Virus record (IMG/VR): IMGVR_UViG_3300006990_000175
Span: 1 to 23,081 of that record
Reading direction: 5' to 3' (one strand)
Origin: a virus
Length of the DNA stretch: 23,081 bases
The position numbers were made by a program, and so were the translations under genes. Of the stretch, positions 1-21,229 are shown one piece after another (position 1 is the first letter of the stretch; each line of letters begins with the position of its first letter). The notes below the pieces were generated by a model, which was not told the origin of the DNA, searched no databases, and saw nothing but the letters and a program-made list of their open reading frames with translations.

Positions 1-122
1 ACTTGTTCCCTGCTTGTCTTCTGTAAGCGTTCAGAGTGTGCAGCCAGTCTCTCATACTGCTTGACTGACATCAACAGACTATAGGTCTTTGTCGGTTCAT
101 CTATCTTCGCTGGTCTTCCCAT
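1..122 (-). CDS. Partial ribbon-helix-helix-like DNA-binding protein
   Basis: Leftward gene, cut by the window edge after 40 codons. The visible N-terminus starts MGRPAKIDEP, followed by a short strand-like stretch (KTYSLLMS) and then an amphipathic helix (VKQYERLAAHSERLQ). This matches the strand-helix start of CopG/Arc-type ribbon-helix-helix regulators, which bind short operator repeats as dimers. The second helix would lie off the window, so the fold is not proven. An AAGGA ribosome binding site lies about 8-12 nt upstream of the ATG, inside the neighbouring 47-aa gene; an in-frame GTG directly before the ATG is an alternative start. Lying next to the divergent control region at 241-380, it is a candidate regulator of the replication cassette; that role is inferred from position. 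Confidence 0.55.
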   Translation of the reverse strand, partial: MGRPAKIDEPTKTYSLLMSVKQYERLAAHSERLQKTSREQ

Positions 123-240
123 CACGAATGTCCTTCTTAGCTTGTTTATCTTTTTCTTTAGTACGCTTGTCAGGTATTACTTGTTTACCATACTTGCGTA
201 ACTGTTTAGCTATAGGGTTGATTTTATTAACCTTTTTCAT
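97..240 (-). CDS. Small lysine-rich hypothetical protein (47 aa)
   Basis: Leftward 47-codon ORF beginning MKKVNKINPI and ending at a TGA that overlaps the start of the RHH-like gene by 26 nt. By count 13 of 47 residues are lysine, spread along the whole length, so the product is small and strongly basic. No domain is recognised. It is the first leftward gene beside the divergent region, and the overlap suggests co-translation with the regulator downstream. An AGGGA about 10 nt upstream of the ATG is a modest ribosome binding site. It could be a nucleic-acid-binding early protein or a leader peptide; no function is assigned. Confidence 0.5.
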   Translation of the reverse strand: MKKVNKINPIAKQLRKYGKQVIPDKRTKEKDKQAKKDIRDGKTSEDR

Positions 241-261: not shown

Positions 262-285
262 TGTTGTTCTTTGTGTGTAGCTGGT

Positions 286-365
286 TTGTCAACAGGGGTC
301 AAGAGATTTTTTCGTGTTGACAAGATTTGTCATGTCGATTATGCAGGGGACATGTCTTCTGACAA
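286..365. repeat. Inverted-repeat array of TTGTCA/TGACAA half-sites (candidate operator)
   Basis: TTGTCA is at 286-291 and 327-332; TGACAA is at 318-323 and 360-365. The middle pair forms a perfect 6-3-6 inverted repeat (318-332). The outer pairs are spaced about 32 and 33 bases centre to centre, close to three helical turns. The central pair overlaps the TTGACA of the candidate promoter. This arrangement fits an operator for a dimeric, possibly cooperative repressor. Confidence 0.45.
317..345 (+). promoter_or_regulatory. Candidate sigma70-like promoter for the replication cassette
   Basis: A perfect TTGACA (-35) lies at 317-322, followed after 17 bases by TATGCA (340-345) as a poor -10. Spacing is ideal but the -10 matches TATAAT at only three positions, so an activator may be needed. 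Transcription would begin near 352, giving a leader of about 30 nt before the primase. The -35 overlaps a TGACAA half-site of the inverted-repeat array, which would allow repression. Confidence 0.4.
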
Positions 366-380
366 ACAAGGAACGCAACG

Positions 381-1190
381 ATGAAATCACCAGCTTGGTT
401 ATGTGGGTATGTCGAGTCACTCGACTTCCCTGCGCTGACACGATATAGATCAGACTGTCCTGTCTGCGGCAAGAAGAATACATTTAGCGTGACGGACGAC
501 GGAATGCAACGCCTGTGGTATTGTTTCCACGCCGACTGCAACGTGTCTGGTCGCACAGGTATCACCCTAACAAAAGAACACGCCGCCCGAACCCTGCGTG
601 GGTCGCAGGCTCTGGCTCCTGCTCCTTCCCGTACTAGTAACACTTACGAGGTACCTGACACATTTGTCAGTCTTTCTCGTAGTTTAGACGCGGAACTTTA
701 TGTTAAACGTGTACAAGCATACGATGCGTATCTGTCGGGCAGGGCTGACATTCGATACGACTTCAAGCGTAATCGTGCGGTATTTTTAATCAAAGACGGC
801 AACAAGGTTGTCGATGCGGCAGGGAGATCAATCGATGGTAGAACACCTAAGTGGTATCGCTATGGATCAAGTAAAAGTCCTTTTGTTTCTGGGGCAAGTT
901 TATCTGTGGCCTGTGTTGTTGAAGACTGTGCTAGTGCTTGCAGTATTAGCGGTGTTGTCACTGGGGTGGCAATCTTAGGAACTAATCTTCTTAGCGAACA
1001 CATCAGCGTATTGAAACAATATGACCGTGTGTTCGTCGCGCTTGACAAGGATGCCACTGACAAGGCTATTACGATGGTACGTGCGCTGCACACCCACGTG
1101 CCGACAAAACTCATGGTTCTTCGAACCGACTTGAAAAACATGCAAAAGGACGAACGTGATGACTTCCTACGATCCTACATCGATAGATAA
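381..1190 (+). CDS. DNA primase, T7 gp4 N-terminal type (zinc ribbon + Toprim)
   Basis: A 269-aa primase that would make RNA primers on the lagging strand. A zinc-binding motif is visible at the N-terminus (CPVC at 26-29, then Cys48 and Cys53, with His50 between). The C-terminal half holds a Toprim core, with the conserved Glu at 181 (VVED) and the DxD pair at 222-224 (ALDKD) that coordinate Mg2+. The stretch TPKWYRYGSSKSP (155-167) sits where related phage primases carry a similar motif. In T7 this region is fused to the helicase; here it ends at a TAA, and the helicase starts 32 nt earlier in another frame. The start is well supported by AAGGA 8 nt upstream. It is the first gene of the cassette. 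Confidence 0.88.
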   Translation: MKSPAWLCGYVESLDFPALTRYRSDCPVCGKKNTFSVTDDGMQRLWYCFHADCNVSGRTGITLTKEHAARTLRGSQALAPAPSRTSNTYEVPDTFVSLSRSLDAELYVKRVQAYDAYLSGRADIRYDFKRNRAVFLIKDGNKVVDAAGRSIDGRTPKWYRYGSSKSPFVSGASLSVACVVEDCASACSISGVVTGVAILGTNLLSEHISVLKQYDRVFVALDKDATDKAITMVRALHTHVPTKLMVLRTDLKNMQKDERDDFLRSYIDR

Positions 1191-2388: not shown

Positions 2389-2540
2389 TGAGCAACCACG
2401 AAAACGAAGAAGCACTGGAGCGCCTCTACGACGAGGAGTATGTTCGTATACAAAAGCGTTGGCCTATGCTATCAGATGAACACACAGAGAAGTTCGCTGC
2501 ATACTTTGCACAGAAGCGGTTCGAGGAGGAGTCGGAATGA
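2388..2540 (+). CDS. Small acidic hypothetical protein (50 aa)
   Basis: A 50-codon ORF beginning MSNHENEEAL and ending EEESE. Its ATG shares a base with the helicase stop (TGATG), and its own stop overlaps the exonuclease start (ATGA). It is rich in Glu and probably wholly helical. No domain is recognised. Perfect packing between two real genes argues that it is translated; its last codons also hold the GAGGAGG ribosome binding site of the exonuclease. The role is unknown; a small helicase or polymerase accessory factor is possible from position only. Confidence 0.6.
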   Translation: MSNHENEEALERLYDEEYVRIQKRWPMLSDEHTEKFAAYFAQKRFEEESE

Positions 2541-3121
2541 ATGTCCTGACCTTTGACGTGGAGACAACCCACACGGGCAAGCCGAACGGTGGCACGACTG
2601 CGTTGCCCTACTTCGGTAACCGCCTCGTGTCGATAGGCTACAAGTGGCTGGGTGAGGACAATGTGTTCTACCACTGCTACTACCACGAGACTGAGCCACC
2701 CACGCCCAACGCAATGCACAGCTTTCAGACTGCCCTATACTGTGCCGATGTGGTCTTGGGCCAGAACATCAAGTTTGACTTGCAGTGGATACGTGACTGC
2801 GGGTTCGTATACAAGGGAGACATCTATGATACTATGGTTGCGGAGTATGTTCTATCAAAAGCGAGACGCTGGCCTCTTGGACTTGCTGCTCTTGCAAAAA
2901 AGTATGACACAGTGCAAAAGGAGAAGGACCTTGTTCAGCCGTATCTGGACGGGGGCAAGACGTTCTACGAGATACCGTGGGAGATAGTACGAGAGTATGG
3001 CATCGCTGATGTCATAAGCACAGAGCAGGTGGCTCTGAAACAACTGGATGCCTTTGGCACTACATTCGAGGACTTATACAATGACGAACGATCTACTGCC
3101 GACACTGCGCTTGTCGTTTGA
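2537..3121 (+). CDS. 3'-5' exonuclease, DEDDy family (proofreading domain as a separate ORF)
   Basis: A 194-aa protein equal to the exonuclease domain normally fused to family A polymerases. Exo I is FDVET with Asp7 and Glu9, Exo II is NIKFD with Asp81, and Exo III is YGIAD with Tyr154 and Asp158. All four acidic residues and the tyrosine are present, so two-metal proofreading activity is expected. A strong GAGGAGG ribosome binding site lies just upstream. After the Exo III motif the frame runs about 36 residues further and stops at TGA, 41 nt inside the polymerase gene, which is in the +1 frame. It probably acts in trans with the polymerase; a frameshifted fusion is the alternative. Confidence 0.85.
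   Translation: MNVLTFDVETTHTGKPNGGTTALPYFGNRLVSIGYKWLGEDNVFYHCYYHETEPPTPNAMHSFQTALYCADVVLGQNIKFDLQWIRDCGFVYKGDIYDTMVAEYVLSKARRWPLGLAALAKKYDTVQKEKDLVQPYLDGGKTFYEIPWEIVREYGIADVISTEQVALKQLDAFGTTFEDLYNDERSTADTALVV
3068..3072 (+). promoter_or_regulatory. Ribosome binding site that sets the polymerase start
   Basis: GAGGA lies 8 nt before the ATG at 3081, inside the exonuclease frame. It favours the start at 3081 over the upstream ATG at 3048 and supports independent initiation of the polymerase. Confidence 0.6.
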
Positions 3122-4619
3122 GATGGCCGACACACTGGCCCGCATCGAACGCAATGGCTTGCGGGTCAACCTAGATACACTACAAGAGATTGAGAAGCAG
3201 TACCAAGAGGAACTCGACACACTCGAACTGCGCCTCAACGAGATGGCACGTGAGGCTATGGGTGACACGCCCATCAGTCTGACCAGCCCAGACGACAGGT
3301 CGATGCTTCTCTACTCTCGCAAGGTAAGAGACAAGAAGGCATGGTCACAGATGTTCAACTTGGGTATGGAGCGTCGTGGTGCCACGATGAAGCCCAAGCA
3401 GCGCACACGCATGTCAGGCAAAGACTTCCGCCTCGCTGTACGCAACAACACGGATGTCGTATATAAGACAATTGGTGAGCAGTGCCGCACCTGTGTCGGG
3501 TTTGGCAAAGTCCGGCCCGTACGAAAGGACGGCACACCAAGCAAGGCACTGCGTATCTGCAAGACGTGTGACGGCAAGGGTGTGGTCTATCGTCCGACGA
3601 GTGAGGTAGCAGGCTTCAAGATCGTACCACGCAACGTGCGTGACGTGGCATCTGCTGGATTTAAGACGGACAAGGACACACTGGCTGAACGTGAACTCGA
3701 ACTGTCGGGTCCGGCCCGTGAGTTCGCATCGTCGTATGTGCGCTACAATGCTCTGCGTATGTATTTGGGAACCTTTGTGGAGGGGATGAAAAACAATGTC
3801 GATGACTACGGAATCGTACATCCGGAATTTATGCAGTGTGTTACGGCGACGGGTCGCCTTTCGTCTCGTAACCCGAACTTTCAGAATATGCCACGAGGTA
3901 ATACCTTCGAGATACGCAAGGTTGTCGAGAGTCGCTTTGAGGACGGCAAGATCATTGAGGGCGACTACTCGCAACTCGAATTCAGAGTGGCAGGATTTCT
4001 AGCCAATGATCAGCAGGCGTATGATGACGTGCGTATCGGCACCGACGTACACAGCTACACCGCGGGTGTCATAGGCTGCTCACGACAAGAAGCGAAGGCC
4101 CACACATTCAAGCCTCTCTATGGTGGCACTACGGGCACAGAGGCCCAGCAACGCTACTACAGGGCCTTCAAGGAGAAGTATGGGGGTGTATCCCTCTGGC
4201 ATGAAGACTTGCAGCGAGAGGCCGTCGAGAAGCGCGTAGTGACGCTTCCCTCTGGTAGGCAGTACGCTTTTCCTGATGCGCGGTGGACAAAGTACGGCAC
4301 GGCAACACACAGGACAAACATATGCAACTATCCTGTGCAGGGATTTGCAACCGCTGACCTGCTGCCCGCTGCCCTCGTTCGTCTCGACAGTCTGTTCATA
4401 GAAAACAAACTACAGTCTGTGATATGCAACACGGTCCACGACTCGATTGTGATCGACTGTCACCCAGACGAAAAAATCATTTGCGTCAAGCTGATGCGAG
4501 AGGCTATGCTCTCTCTGCCTGAAGAGACGATACGACGCTATGGTGTCGAGTACGACATGCCCGTCGAGATTGAGATAAAAATGGGCGATAACTGGCTTGA
4601 CTTGCACGTCGTAGAGTAG
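3081..4619 (+). CDS. Family A DNA polymerase with DnaJ-type zinc-finger insertion
   Basis: A 512-aa polymerase lacking its own exonuclease domain. Residues 257-271 (TGRLSS...NPNFQNMP) are the conserved template-binding segment. Motif A is DYSQLE (Asp295), motif B runs Arg335-Lys339-Phe343-Tyr347 with the spacing of E. coli Arg754-Lys758-Phe762-Tyr766, and motif C is HDS (453-455). The residue matching position 762 is Phe, as in E. coli Pol I and unlike Tyr in T7. Between the N-terminal part and the palm lie CRTCVGFG (135-142) and CKTCDGKG (160-167), two repeats of the DnaJ zinc-finger motif. DnaJ has four, so this is a half domain likely to bind one zinc. I recall this feature from phage HMO-2011. 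The start at 3081 is chosen because of GAGGA 8 nt upstream. Confidence 0.92.
   Translation: MTNDLLPTLRLSFEMADTLARIERNGLRVNLDTLQEIEKQYQEELDTLELRLNEMAREAMGDTPISLTSPDDRSMLLYSRKVRDKKAWSQMFNLGMERRGATMKPKQRTRMSGKDFRLAVRNNTDVVYKTIGEQCRTCVGFGKVRPVRKDGTPSKALRICKTCDGKGVVYRPTSEVAGFKIVPRNVRDVASAGFKTDKDTLAERELELSGPAREFASSYVRYNALRMYLGTFVEGMKNNVDDYGIVHPEFMQCVTATGRLSSRNPNFQNMPRGNTFEIRKVVESRFEDGKIIEGDYSQLEFRVAGFLANDQQAYDDVRIGTDVHSYTAGVIGCSRQEAKAHTFKPLYGGTTGTEAQQRYYRAFKEKYGGVSLWHEDLQREAVEKRVVTLPSGRQYAFPDARWTKYGTATHRTNICNYPVQGFATADLLPAALVRLDSLFIENKLQSVICNTVHDSIVIDCHPDEKIICVKLMREAMLSLPEETIRRYGVEYDMPVEIEIKMGDNWLDLHVVE
3483..3581 (+). other. Half DnaJ central zinc-finger domain inside the polymerase
   Basis: Encodes residues 135-167, with the paired motifs CRTCVGFG and CKTCDGKG separated by about 17 residues. 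Four cysteines at 135, 138, 160 and 163 could bind a single zinc. The glycines after each pair match the Cys-x2-Cys-x-Gly-x-Gly signature of DnaJ. Confidence 0.85.
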
Positions 4620-11758: not shown

Positions 11759-14700
11759 TTAGTCGTCCTCTTCTTCCTCTGGGAGTTCAAGTAATTGATC
11801 TAGGTATTGTCTGCCTTCTTCACCAAGCTGACCCAGTTCGGATATCACGAAGTCTATGGTCATGTTTGAGGCTATGTCCAGATCAGCCTTAGTCATTTGA
11901 TCCGGGTACTTCATAAGTTTTAGCATAACTTCTGCGTTTTCTTTGTTGCCCGCTGCAAGCTTCATCATGTTCAAGCCTGCCTGCATAGCAAGGTTCACTG
12001 CCAGTTCGGCTGTTACGTATTGCGGGCTGACCATGCGACGTGCAAGGTTGAATCCTCGTGCCATGATGTTGCCCGGAGTCATAGGACTTACGATGTTCTT
12101 TATCTTAGGGTCTATGCTTTCAGCGATAGACCTTGCACCGGCAGCGTACGCATTTTCTTCGCTTAGAAGGTCTGCCATATCTGATACGTATTGAATATGT
12201 TCTTCGTCCATGATCCCAGAAAGAATCTGGCGAACATTATCTCTTTCGAGAGCAGCGGTCAGCATCTCAGGATTGTACATGGCGTGGTTGGTAAATTCCT
12301 TGCCGTTCATGCCTACGCTCTTGGCACCTGCCACGGGAGCATAACCAGCGTACTGCATCATACCATTTATAATGAGATAATTGACTCCTTTTCTTAGAAC
12401 GTCTTCAGTATTATACGTGGCACCATCCACTGTAGTAAACGTATCTCCCAGCTTTGTGGCTATGGCAGTCAAGAAGTTACTCATGGTGTCAACATCACCA
12501 TTTACAACCATGTTTTCAAAGAAGGACTGGGGGTTTGTGTCACCCTGAAATCTAGTGATCAACTTTACACCATCATCCACTTCTTTTGCGTTCGATAAGA
12601 TTTCAGCCTGTGATGCAGTCAGCTTACTTGTCACCTGTTCTGAGAACTTCTTGTAAGCTTCCAAGACCTCCATGTCGCTTTTAGCTGCGGCTCCTGCATC
12701 CCCAGTCGCTCTTCCGATGATAGTCGCAATGCCCTGCTCTTGTTCGATCATCTTACCGAAGTCTACAAGATAAACAGGCACGACTTTTGTGCTGCCGTCC
12801 TCTAGGGTTACATTTCCGGTAATCTTGAAGATATCCTGAAGTTGATTGAGATTTTCTGCAGCTTCGAAATTGTAGCCGCCGCTCCTAGCTTCAGTTGCTA
12901 CTTGAGTGGCAAGCCTTTCTTCGAGTCCCTTACCTACATTCCTGCCCCATTTTGCGTAGATTAATTCCGTAAGCTGAGAAGACAGAAGGGCAAAGTCTTT
13001 TGCTCCCTGTTCAGTTGACAGATCGAACACGAACTCACTACCTTCTTCTAGGACGATATCACTGAATGACTGGATAAGCTGATTGCGAGTTTTAAGTAGT
13101 TGAGTCAGGGCATCATCTTCACCCCGCATGGCAGCGTTGACGTTTTTTAACAGGCCGTCAAACGCATCAAGAGGAGTGTCGCCCTTGTATGCTATGGTAA
13201 ACAGACGATCAGAAATAACCTCTGGTGGAATTTCTTCTCCAACTGCAACGTCGTCAAAGAAGATAGCTTCTCCAGACTCTGCTCGTTCCATGCTGGCTGC
13301 AAGACCTTCACCCTTCTTTTCGACAGCTATAACAGGTCCGTCTTGTGACTTGTATATCCTAGTAAGCGGGCCACCTACACGAAGCTTATCAAACCACTCT
13401 GCTTGATATGTTTGTCTAGCTGCTTTCCATTGATCAGCAAACTCTTGGCCCATGCCATCTCGAACCGTAGCCTCTACCTGTGTAGCGTAGTCAGCATAGC
13501 GGGATGCGAGTCCCTCGTCTCCTGTGCGGACAGCGTAGTCACGGAATGCTGCATATACGTCCATTACTTCGCCGGGTGACGCTAGAAGGTCAGGAGCCTC
13601 TATGCCAAGCTTTTGTTGATTCTCAGGATTCATGTAGAACATCAGGATGTCGAGGGGCTTCAGTTCACCTTCTTTGCCCAAGTACAGATCACCAGCCTTC
13701 TCATTTGTGTGTAGCTTATATAGAGCGTTGTAGCCGTCACCTTCCATAGATTCTAGGGAACGTGCCGCCATTCTGTTTGCCGCACGGTATACCTGCTTGC
13801 CCAAAGTGCCAACAAAGAAACGTGAATTTTTTGCAAAGAATGCCTGTAGGCCATCCCCTTCTGGGGCGTACTCCATCAAGTCAAGAATCATCTTGTTGAT
13901 AGGAATGCTTGTGCCTGCTTCTTCGGCCATCTTGTCGAGAGGAATAAAGTCTCTCTTCGCCAAGTCCTTCATTCTTTTGAGTCTGTTCTGGATACTCAAC
14001 TCAAATTGCTGACCCACCAGTTTGAGATGCTTTACGTCGTTTCTACGGAATAGGGCTATGTTTGCAGCACGATCAGCAAGAAGATTCCTGTTCGTCTCGT
14101 ATTGTTGGTTAAGCGTCTGAAGTATGTCTACGTCATCTCCCAGACTTTTTAGTTGCAGTTCGTCCAAGCCCTCTATCAAGCCCGCTGGCATAGGAGTGTT
14201 GGGATCACGTATGACAGCAGTCTTGAAGTCCATAATTTGCTGGTTTAATACCGCTCTGTCCTTGTTGAGAAACTTAGTGGACTCTGTTAGGGAAGCCTCC
14301 ATAGCTGCAATATATCTGTTCACCTCTCCCGGATCAAACAGGTCAGTCTTTCCCGCTACCATCTCACGGAGGTTCTTCACAAGGAGGGCTGTCTTACCAT
14401 TGCCTTTCTCAATCATGCGCTGATTTGCGGCCATCTCTGACAGCTTGTCGAGACTGCCAGAATCCATAGCATTAACTTCGAGGCCAGCAAGGCGATTAGC
14501 AGAACGAAGCCATCCGATGTTTGACTGGATAGCAAATTCTTCTTTGAGAATTTTTCTCATAGCCTCGCGTTCTTTGTCATCCTCAAACTGCCCAATCAAA
14601 AACGCAGTTCTATTCTGCGACTTCTCCATCGCAGTAACTACCTGATCTAAGCCTTCGTCATCAAGGGAACCGGCGATCCTCCCTACGTACTTCAATGCAG

Positions 14701-16723: not shown

Positions 16724-18762
16724 TAAATGCTTCCCTGCGCTGCTTCGTAAGCGTCGATGATTGCTTGGTCAGTAATCGTATTGCCTGTCGCTTGATCTAT
16801 GTATTTTCCGCCTATTTTAATGACATTTGAGATATCCGGAGGAGTGGCCGCTCCAGACGCAGCCGACGTTGATCCCTGCCTGCCCATAGCATTAACCCCA
16901 CGCTCTAGTTCATCTATCATCAGCGTAGCCTCTACTACCTTCAAGTCGTTTGGTGTAGCTACGTAATCATCTGCAGCAAACTGCTCAAATACAGCATACT
17001 GCTCTTGTTTGATGGTAAATTCGCGTATTGCTTCATTCAGTGCGCCTGTGGCCTGTTCGATAGTGCTGAAGTTTGTGCCCAACTTACGAAGCTGAATTTC
17101 AATATCTTGGTTCGACAAGCGTCCTGACGGGTCAGCCGCCCGTGCCATACGGAAAGCGAGAGAGATACGCATGGCCTCTAGTCGAGCCATACGAACATCA
17201 CTCTGTTCCATAATACCGGCGTTAAGCTTGTCTAGGTACTCTTGAGTAAGGTTGTTATTATTAGCAAGCATATCTGCGTCTGACTGGCCCGGCATTGACA
17301 CGATACTCTTGACATCGCGAATAAGTCCGCCAAACATACCCTGATCTATATCGAAGACAACTTTGAGTTCCTTTTTAAAATTTTCGTAGGCCATGTTCGC
17401 GGCTTCTGCGGTAAGCTTGCCGTCTGCATCGCGATCCGCCGTTTCTACAAACTTTAAGAACTCAGTTTTTAATCTGTTTAGATCATCTACAGCAACCTTC
17501 AAATCACTCTGGCCATCCATAAATTCCTTGAACTTGATGTCCTGTTTATCGGGGCCAAACACTTTTTGCAGGATAAACGTCTGCACTGTCTGCGGCGCAA
17601 TTTGAACTGTATCGCCCACCATTGTAGTAGGCTGTTGCTGCACGGGGGCAGGGAGGTGTGCAGCTAGGGCGTACACTTTAGATCGATGATCACCACCATT
17701 AGACAGTGTAGATTCAGTTAAAGAGTTGTACATCAGTGTAGCAAAAGCACCGTCTCCTGCAATGGATTGGCGAATGCTTGATACTTTTATCTGATCCGGA
17801 TTAGCCATCTTGAGTCCGAATTCTAGCGCACCCTGTAGGGCATTTGCTGTATACGTAGGAAGCGTTTGTGGATCACCCGGAACATTCATAAACTGGGTCT
17901 GCCAGTAATCCAGAAGTGCCAGCCTGTCATTGCCCTGTAGACCCAGAGAAGTGGCTAGTTCGTCGTGAGCCTGTTGCAGGAGCGGCATGTTACTGAAGTC
18001 AAGATACTGATAGGATACGCTTCCGTCCGCTTGAATTTTTCCCTCACCTATGGAGGTGACATTCGTTCCGCCTGTCTGCAGTTGGGGTAGGATCGTGTCT
18101 AAGTCGGGAGACTTCCAACCAGATGCGCCAGTGACCCCCGGCGTATTCGGGAAGTATCCTTTTGCAAAGTTGTCCCAGTTCGCAATGGCAGGGAACATTG
18201 CGTTTTGTCCCTCGCCATACAGGTTAGGTATCTTTACTGCTCCGGGAGTTTTGGTATCCACCTCTTTTGTGGAAATGACCCTTCTAGCCGTAGTAACGGC
18301 GGCATTAATTTCAGATAGCTGTCCGGGAGTTTTTGTTGCAAGTGTTTCGACGTTCTTGGGATCAGCCATAATGCGAGTCCAGTCGTTTAGCAACTGATAC
18401 GATCCCTCATAGTCAAACTTAATCTCATTATCTAGCTTGAACCCGCCCAAAGAGTACGACTCTTCGTCTACAGTTTTTAGCAGCGGCACGATACTCGACA
18501 AGTCTGTGCTGATACGTGGACCCGGAGTACCGAAGATGTCAATACGTTCCCGTTCATCCAGTTTACCCTGCTGAGTTTTGATGGCATTGGCGATCACTGC
18601 TGCATTGGCTTGACTAAAGTTCTTGCCACCCGTCAGACTGGCGTTGATAAGCATGTCATTCAGCTTGTCAACACTCTGCTGCTCAGACGCACGAATAGCC
18701 TTCTCTTCCTGAATATTTTTAGTGAATCCCTGTACAAGACCCATGCCAAGAGCAGCTAGCAT
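16723..18762 (-). CDS. Virion protein, likely internal core protein (T7 gp15-like position)
   Basis: A 679-aa, mostly helical protein beginning MLAALGMGLVQGFTKNIQEE, with a short hydrophobic N-terminus followed by a long charged helix. Near the C-terminus there is a flexible Ser/Ala/Gly stretch (QGSTSAASGAATPP). No enzyme motif or named domain is seen. A GAGGAATAGGA ribosome binding site embedded in the stop of the previous gene supports the start. It is placed between the 184-aa and 1654-aa genes and probably belongs to the same ejection assembly. Confidence in the coding call is high, in the function moderate. Confidence 0.6.
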   Translation of the reverse strand: MLAALGMGLVQGFTKNIQEEKAIRASEQQSVDKLNDMLINASLTGGKNFSQANAAVIANAIKTQQGKLDERERIDIFGTPGPRISTDLSSIVPLLKTVDEESYSLGGFKLDNEIKFDYEGSYQLLNDWTRIMADPKNVETLATKTPGQLSEINAAVTTARRVISTKEVDTKTPGAVKIPNLYGEGQNAMFPAIANWDNFAKGYFPNTPGVTGASGWKSPDLDTILPQLQTGGTNVTSIGEGKIQADGSVSYQYLDFSNMPLLQQAHDELATSLGLQGNDRLALLDYWQTQFMNVPGDPQTLPTYTANALQGALEFGLKMANPDQIKVSSIRQSIAGDGAFATLMYNSLTESTLSNGGDHRSKVYALAAHLPAPVQQQPTTMVGDTVQIAPQTVQTFILQKVFGPDKQDIKFKEFMDGQSDLKVAVDDLNRLKTEFLKFVETADRDADGKLTAEAANMAYENFKKELKVVFDIDQGMFGGLIRDVKSIVSMPGQSDADMLANNNNLTQEYLDKLNAGIMEQSDVRMARLEAMRISLAFRMARAADPSGRLSNQDIEIQLRKLGTNFSTIEQATGALNEAIREFTIKQEQYAVFEQFAADDYVATPNDLKVVEATLMIDELERGVNAMGRQGSTSAASGAATPPDISNVIKIGGKYIDQATGNTITDQAIIDAYEAAQGSI

Positions 18763-19732: not shown

Positions 19733-21229
19733 CTATGTCGAGTCATCAGAGCCGCTGCCCATCCACGCAGCAATCCAGTTACCGATACCCATAGCTAGGT
19801 TGTCCTTTTGTTGTTTGCTATACAGTTCTTTTGTGTTCGCAAACTCCATCGCCATGATACCAACCTCATGTTGCCGTTGCAGGAATGACTCTGTTTTCTG
19901 AAAATTCCATGCTGCGTTGTCACGATACTTTTGCCACAAGTTGTTCAAGGCATTCTGGCTGGAGTTGTAGGCATTCGCTACATTGATTCGATTTGTTTCG
20001 TTTTGCACGGCTGTGGCAGCAGTGTTGACCTGTCTGCGCCACTGGACATTCGACTGGTCTACAGCGTACTGCATATTCGCATTGAACTTCTCACGGTTGT
20101 CCCGCATAGCTGCATTGAATTGTGCCTGTGCGTTTGCTTCTCCGGCGTTGAACTGACGCATAGCAGCAACACGGTTCATGTTTGCTGTTTCGACTTGTGA
20201 TCCCAGTTCAGCGAAGAACTCCTCAACCTGCAACTCGTTCTTTGCGTTGAATTGTTGACGAGCATTGTCTTCTGCAGCATCCTTAAACATCGCCTGTGTT
20301 AGGGCGTTGTATGACAGGGTATTGCCCTGCTGCCGTGCGTCGAGGTTCTTTGTTTCGACAGACAGAAGGACTTGTGCGTTGGTAACAGCACCCTGCAGAC
20401 GAGCCGACAAGTTTGCTTTGTCCATCGCCGCATATACTGCTGCGTTTTGCAGGGCTGTTTTCTGTTGATTGTTAAGATTTTGTAGCTGTATCGTGGCGTA
20501 CTTGTTGGCATCTTGTGATGCTATGACAACGCCCGACTCCATAACAGCCTGCGTCATAGCCGCTGCAGCCATAGACGATGCACCCAAGCCACGTGCCTGC
20601 ATAACACCGGCCACCTTGCGTACGGCAGGTGCGGCCCATGCTGGCATAGGCTTACCCTCTTCGATACTACCCAGCAACTCACCAAGCTGGTATTGAACAG
20701 TGGCGCGTGGGTCAAGTTCCTGTGTGGCGGCTACGGCCTGTGATCCAGCAGACACAGTACCCTCAACTTGTGAGATGTCAACTTGAGGACGACGTGCATC
20801 CTCAATCTGTGCTGCCGTCATACCCTGAACGTCAGGAGCAACCCTTGTTGTCGAATCTACTTGGCCTAAGTCAGGAGTCTGTTGAGTAGGTATGTCCGCA
20901 ACGATAGACCCTTGACCGGGCTGGACAGGAGCAGGGAATATAAGTCCCTGCTGGGCCTGCGCGAGGTTGTCTCCTTCAAACGCAATATCGAAACGGGGAA
21001 AACGTCCGTAATAATTATCATTGTAATTCGGACCAGAAATTCCGGCAGTAGTTGTAGCGGCTCTGGGCGTACCCACCAATTTTTTACCCGCTAGGGTATC
21101 CATTTCTCCTTCTTGAACAGTAGGAAGAGCGGCCTCAAGCTGGGGAATACCCGTAGTTTCCCCTGCTGCTACCTCGCCTATTTGATTCATAAGGTCTGCG
21201 TCGGTGGATATTTTATTTACGTCAGACAT
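19733..21229 (-). CDS. Virion protein with 11-residue helical repeats (T7 gp14-like position)
   Basis: A 498-aa protein. Residues 1-170 are low in hydrophobics, Gly/Pro/Gln-rich and probably extended. Residues about 195-235 contain an Ala-rich stretch (MQARGLGASSMAAAAMTQAV). From about 240 to 470 it is a long Gln/Asn/Ala-rich helix. Within that, QFNA recurs at 326, 359 and 370, KFNA at 381 and EFFA at 337, all in an 11-residue register. Such hendecads form unusual coiled coils or helices lying on membranes. No family is identified by motif. As the first large protein in the run before the 679- and 1654-aa genes it corresponds in place to T7 gp14, an internal protein that enters the host outer membrane. 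Confidence 0.6.
   Translation of the reverse strand: MSDVNKISTDADLMNQIGEVAAGETTGIPQLEAALPTVQEGEMDTLAGKKLVGTPRAATTTAGISGPNYNDNYYGRFPRFDIAFEGDNLAQAQQGLIFPAPVQPGQGSIVADIPTQQTPDLGQVDSTTRVAPDVQGMTAAQIEDARRPQVDISQVEGTVSAGSQAVAATQELDPRATVQYQLGELLGSIEEGKPMPAWAAPAVRKVAGVMQARGLGASSMAAAAMTQAVMESGVVIASQDANKYATIQLQNLNNQQKTALQNAAVYAAMDKANLSARLQGAVTNAQVLLSVETKNLDARQQGNTLSYNALTQAMFKDAAEDNARQQFNAKNELQVEEFFAELGSQVETANMNRVAAMRQFNAGEANAQAQFNAAMRDNREKFNANMQYAVDQSNVQWRRQVNTAATAVQNETNRINVANAYNSSQNALNNLWQKYRDNAAWNFQKTESFLQRQHEVGIMAMEFANTKELYSKQQKDNLAMGIGNWIAAWMGSGSDDST

Follow-up and report, generated by a model that had tools for sequence, protein, structure and literature searches.

The window analyzed here, the whole 23,081-nt stretch of a 23-kb virus record, derives from an HMO-2011-like podovirus of an uncultured clade, as judged from its replication module and primase matches. 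Two small leftward genes and a rightward replication operon, running from primase through helicase, polymerase and RNR genes, diverge from a 140-bp gap at 241-380. The features of this region, with PR and PL denoting the predicted rightward and leftward promoters, are as follows.

1-122, minus strand: leftward gene 2, predicted ribbon-helix-helix (RHH) protein, cut by the window end
97-240, minus strand: leftward gene 1, 47-aa basic protein (MKKxNKINPIAK...), called from its ORF and relatives, with no confident family match
252-261, no strand: CCCTATAGGG palindrome in the PL leader, adjoining the gene 1 start
274-279, minus strand: predicted PL -10 element TACACA, weak; TA invariant, 5/6 columns invariant in 12 close relatives
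286-291, minus strand: copy 1, TTGACA in the PL spacer, candidate operator; 6/6 columns invariant in 12 close relatives
297-302, minus strand: predicted PL -35 box, TTGACC; core GTCAA in 60/61 regions
303-316, no strand: A/T tract (an A/T run) between both -35 boxes, candidate shared UP element
317-322, plus strand: predicted PR -35 box TTGACA, including copy 2 (318-323); core TTGAC in 60/61 regions
327-332, plus strand: copy 3, TTGTCA in the PR spacer; in 7/56 distinct relatives, 4/6 columns invariant in 12 close relatives
340-345, plus strand: predicted PR -10 element TATGCA; TA invariant, last position not T
353-365, plus strand: copy 4, a TGTC-N4-GACA(A) dyad within the leader of the primase gene; candidate operator, or else a leader hairpin
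381-1190, plus strand: DNA primase (Toprim), opening the rightward replication operon; phrog_47, E 6e-20

The primase matched 12 of 50,697 phage records, all of them Puniceispirillum, Pelagibacter or Roseobacter phages, and the HMO-2011-type isolates share 29-36% identity with it. Along with the common replication module, the window carries a PolA with a DnaJ-like central domain, the DnaJ match lying below the Pfam cut-off (19.3 vs 32.7 bits). The PolA coding sequence is divided between two overlapping frames, exonuclease and polymerase (2537-3121 and 3048-4619); since L002, L003, L011, L017 and L044 likewise have a stop in the exonuclease frame, sequencing error in this record does not account for the split. 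Hosts of the best-matched isolates are SAR116, SAR11 and roseobacters, all of them alphaproteobacteria, and from these distant isolates we infer an alphaproteobacterial host. Searching bacterial genome contigs with the primase returned no match.

The initial annotation had singled out four copies of TTGTCA or its complement within 80 bp of the divergent gap, and all four were confirmed: TTGTCA at 286-291 (+), TGACAA at 318-323, TTGTCA at 327-332 and TGACAA at 360-365. The hexamer starts are separated by steps of 32, 9 and 33, and copies 2 and 3 form TGACAAgatTTGTCA in a 6-3-6 layout. This cluster exceeds chance: no hexamer but TTGTCA/TGACAA occurs four or more times within 80 bp anywhere in the window, and across 400 dinucleotide shuffles of the window the largest 80-bp cluster held three copies, none reaching four. 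When the 140-bp gap was shuffled alone, four copies arose in 1 of 5000 cases. Window-wide, 21 copies were counted vs 16.2 expected from shuffles, indicating that the cluster is over-represented while the hexamer as such is not; in non-coding DNA, where the annotation had named a high background as a possible objection, its density is greater than in coding DNA, both in the window (3.74 vs 0.74 per kb) and in five relatives (0.87-2.79 vs 0.71-0.83 per kb). Dense clusters of the same hexamer were also seen about 2 kb left of the primase in three other records (G002 18503-18589, G010 23302-23400 and G012 13518-13655), in or near coding DNA around the start of a small gene.

Conservation was assessed in IMG/VR using 80 close-relative loci, the best 80 of 228 confirmed. 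Removing duplicates, two short flanks and five loci without the core described below at N10-15 (L029, L032, L037, L078 and L030) gave a set of 56 distinct regions, and a wider core search (GTCAA-N10..18-TTGAC within 160 bp of the primase) kept 60 distinct regions, with L030 alone outside, for a total of 61. Because these relatives share descent, counts over them are not independent.

What is most conserved in the gap is a core of the form GTCAA-(A/T tract)-TTGAC, found within 160 bp of the primase in 60 of the 61 distinct upstream regions; in L030 it lies farther upstream, beyond an inserted ORF. Its left arm, GGTCAA at 297-302, is a fifth related element that the annotation had overlooked and corresponds to the PL -35 box. 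The dinucleotide TA was observed 17-18 bp outward of each TTGAC in 60/60 regions on both strands, compared to 0/56 for PR and nine counts for PL at 11-16 bp instead, such that all 60 core-bearing relatives carry, on both strands, a predicted -35 and -10 within the 16-18 bp range of sigma70-type promoters. The spacer within the core is 13-17 bp long, a variation that two -35 boxes would allow and a rigid operator would not, favoring a promoter reading. A run of at least five A or T occurs in 56/60 cores vs 11.6% of 14-mers from the same upstream regions. Collectively, the sequence evidence identifies the core as predicted back-to-back sigma70-type promoters, PR for the replication genes and PL for the leftward small-gene operon, from each of which transcription would proceed. 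Given the conserved core and the TA spacing, copy 2 is best read as the PR -35 box. The enrichment of TTGTCA/TGACAA would then follow largely from the fact that a -35 box extended by one A reads TTGACAA, with two such boxes facing away from each other.

Beyond TA, both -10 elements fit the E. coli consensus poorly, matching it at a few scattered letters, and across relatives TA is kept and the final T usually is not. According to PMC8407463, T at -7 is missing from more than 60% of the sigma70 promoters of several alphaproteobacteria, and CarD is proposed to make up for its absence. Since the isolates' hosts are alphaproteobacterial, a TA-start -10 without the final T fits the expected pattern. 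Two further words were noted around these elements. A direct repeat, GTCATGTC / GACATGTC, at 329-336 and 349-356, 20 bp apart, lies on either side of the PR -10 and is seen chiefly in the close group. At the CCCTATAGGG site, CCC..GGG-like words are kept in other groups with the centre altered; this palindrome resembles a T7-like promoter, an identity we rejected because CTATAGGG occurs just three times in the window, with a single palindrome accounting for two of the occurrences.

In relatives, 5-6 kb farther left, we found a second divergent promoter built in the same way (in the twin record, G001 21051-21071; L126 6799-6819). Its exact 21-mer, TGTCAACTTTTTTTCTTGACA, was found inside a long non-coding gap in 74 IMG/VR stretches (L103-L176), which yielded 51 distinct flanks after four short flanks were removed and identical ones merged. 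At 17 bp, these flanks carry a leftward TATACT in 49/51 and a rightward TACTAT, TACACT or TACAAT in 49/51, and this recurrence of the build with consensus-like -10s strengthens the promoter reading of the core. The word TGTCAACTTTTTTTCTTGACA alone is not specific, as it also occurs in six bacterial genome contig stretches from unrelated bacteria. Directly after the rightward -10 of this second promoter we observed a hairpin-like GGGCATAGGCCC (L108, L136, L158 and others), replaced by GGACATAAGTCC in three loci, a compensating change that may reflect RNA or DNA structure.

Alignment of relatives separated the four hexamers, which the annotation had treated as a single evenly spaced array with a central inverted repeat over the -35. 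The inverted repeat is present and its copy 2 falls in the PR -35 box, but it is not conserved, because copy 3 reads TTGTCA in just 7/56 distinct relatives. The outer spacings of 32 and 33 bp, described as near three helical turns, are exact in the window; among relatives, however, copy 1 to copy 2 measures 31 or 32 bp in the close clade and up to 35 bp elsewhere (e.g. L032). All four exact copies occur together in 5/56 distinct upstream regions. The divergent early-type promoter region is supported and the single four-copy array is not, and of the aligned half-sites copies 1 and 4 are conserved enough for operators while copy 3 and the whole set are not.

Copy 1 forms, together with the PL -35, a GTCAA-N5-GTCAA repeat of period 10 that is exact in 41/56 distinct relatives with the intervening bases free; the motif sits at the copy 1 position in 13/18 records, with one additional match elsewhere, in G015. 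We rejected copy 1 as the -35 of a second PL promoter, as TA profiles revealed no -10 at a fixed distance. Copy 4 lies near the expected PR start site, and hence RNA 5' end, with a GTC-N3/4-GAC dyad in 24/56 and TGACAA in 17/56 distinct relatives; the former is a loose count, since in certain group C loci the pattern also matches at the start codon. The stricter dyad, TGTC-N3/4-GACA, is found in the group that includes the window and in the sister groups nearest to it, and is absent from groups C, D and E. A role as a general leader word was likewise rejected, TGACA/TGTCA occurring within 35 nt upstream of just 4/54 and 5/63 genes. Across 77 loci, the seventh base of copy 2 and copy 4 were both present in 36, both absent in 27 and discordant in 14; the changes are mostly shared by descent, so a link between the two is suggestive only. 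Conserved in a lineage-specific manner, copies 1 and 4 rank first as candidate operators.

The partial RHH-like gene reported beside the gap is real and is present in 75/75 loci with enough flank (the other 5 of the 80 end within 260 bp of the primase). Where complete, it encodes about 63-85 aa, and 72 aa in the twin record. Sequence matches of the protein are weak: Pfam RHH_3 scored 14.3 and 17 bits vs the curated cut-off of 21.6, PHROG matches fell below confidence, the best PDB sequence match had E 0.87, and tblastn against 50,697 phage records found nothing. An RHH profile matched 10/10 clade records and 0/2 of the isolates searched. An AlphaFold2 model, built from an alignment of 41 of the 42 distinct RHH sequences, reached a pLDDT of 81.3. 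Its ten best structural alignments (TraM, CopASO, Rv0298, PutA, ORF56, omega, CdbA and ArtA) gave Z 4.3-5.9, the first five Z 5.3-5.9 at rmsd 1.1-1.6, with TraM, CopASO, PutA and omega among the best at Z 5.2-5.9, and we take all ten structures to share the RHH fold. Foldseek against the PDB returned no E under 0.001. On this modeling the gene 2 product is an RHH protein by predicted fold. Arc and Mnt of P22 are RHH regulators, and RHH autoregulators are known elsewhere; by analogy, the protein is likely an autoregulator and the one most likely to bind copies 1 and 4. Where copy 1 is present, RHH residue 17 is always L or M (58/58 loci), and in the five loci with an altered copy 1 it is N or T; it is also L in 11 group C loci lacking copy 1, and the covariation offers only a lead on possible binding to TTGAC sites. 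Group C keeps the RHH gene with neither copy 1 nor the TGTC-TTT-GACA dyad, indicating that an RHH-operator step would not be universal. A lysogeny-type switch finds little support: neither an integrase over the cut-off nor an HTH_3 repressor was found in the 10/10 clade records searched, several of which are fragments.

We consider it most likely, at a probability of about two in three, that the region is a sigma70-type promoter pair sharing an A/T tract, with copies 1 and 4 serving as RHH operators. Host RNA polymerase of the sigma70 type would start the leftward genes at PL and the rightward genes at PR; the PL transcript would yield the small-gene operon, with the RHH protein as its second gene; and this protein, through copies 1 and 4, would cover the PL -35 as well as the PR start, turning early transcription down as it accumulates. 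More doubtful is a narrower proposal, in which the RHH protein from the PL operon binds tandem period-10 TTGAC repeats that take in the PL -35, together with the PR-start dyad, and so may time both gene sets.

Three other explanations were weighed against this. Were all four hexamers half-sites of one phage regulator, in an evenly phased early switch, the far-beyond-chance cluster, the adjoining RHH gene and the retention of copies 1 and 4 in the close clade would follow; yet copy 3 and the full set are rarely kept (7/56 and 5/56), the copy 1-copy 2 spacing drifts over 31-35 bp and a -35 box fully explains copy 2, making such an array improbable. An arrangement of promoters only, with copy 1 a tandem -35, copy 4 a leader hairpin and no phage regulator acting, gains from group C, where the bare core suffices, and from the position of the copy 4 dyad at the expected RNA 5' end. 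We nevertheless judge it unlikely, since copy 1 is invariant in 12 close relatives despite having no -10 at a consistent distance, its period-10 repeat persists in 41/56 regions, and copy 4 is not a general leader feature (4/54 and 5/63 genes).

The period-10 repeat could alternatively be bound by a host OmpR/PhoB-type response regulator, by which the phage would read a host signal at PL. This family, of which CpxR is one example, typically binds direct repeats of 5 bp separated by 5-bp gaps, and GTCAA-N5-GTCAA holds the copy 1 position in 13/18 records. The alphaproteobacterial Pho box, however, has a period of 11 as opposed to the 10 seen here, on which ground we rejected the repeat as a Pho box, and we attach little probability to a host regulator in general. 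The promoter pair with RHH operators at copies 1 and 4 remains the preferred reading. The narrower proposal, which we judge unlikely, would if true mean that a lytic marine phage clade builds operators from its own -35 boxes, and that a single protein sets the timing of leftward early genes and replication genes alike, with no CI-like repressor involved.

The promoter and regulator region is ordinary in kind and well delimited. It provides a concrete early control region for a phage related to one of the most common groups of marine phages, with predicted coordinates for the promoters, a regulator gene that is conserved and a pair of candidate operators. In the open-access literature searched we found no promoter or regulator for this clade, and a term search of the available part of PMC9038755 showed mention of neither promoters nor ribbon-helix-helix.

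Compared to HMO-2011-type podoviruses (HMO-2011, HTVC033P and the CRP phages), the window shares the primase, helicase, PolA with DnaJ-like insert and RNR in identical order. It differs in that the primase of both isolates examined lacks a divergent gap, the RHH homologue is absent from both isolates covered by the profile search, and PolA is one gene in HMO-2011 and split here. The likeness to RHH regulators such as PutA, omega, CopASO and ORF56 lies in predicted fold, small size and a gene adjoining the promoter it possibly controls, whereas the sequence match is weak and the operator here is a candidate. As for alphaproteobacterial sigma70 promoters, whose -10 pattern we take from PMC8407463, the predicted pair is alike in its TTGACA, its 17-18 bp spacing and its TA-start -10 mostly without T at -7, but differs in its back-to-back layout, in which 13-17 bp separate the two -35 boxes and both promoters have an A/T tract in common.
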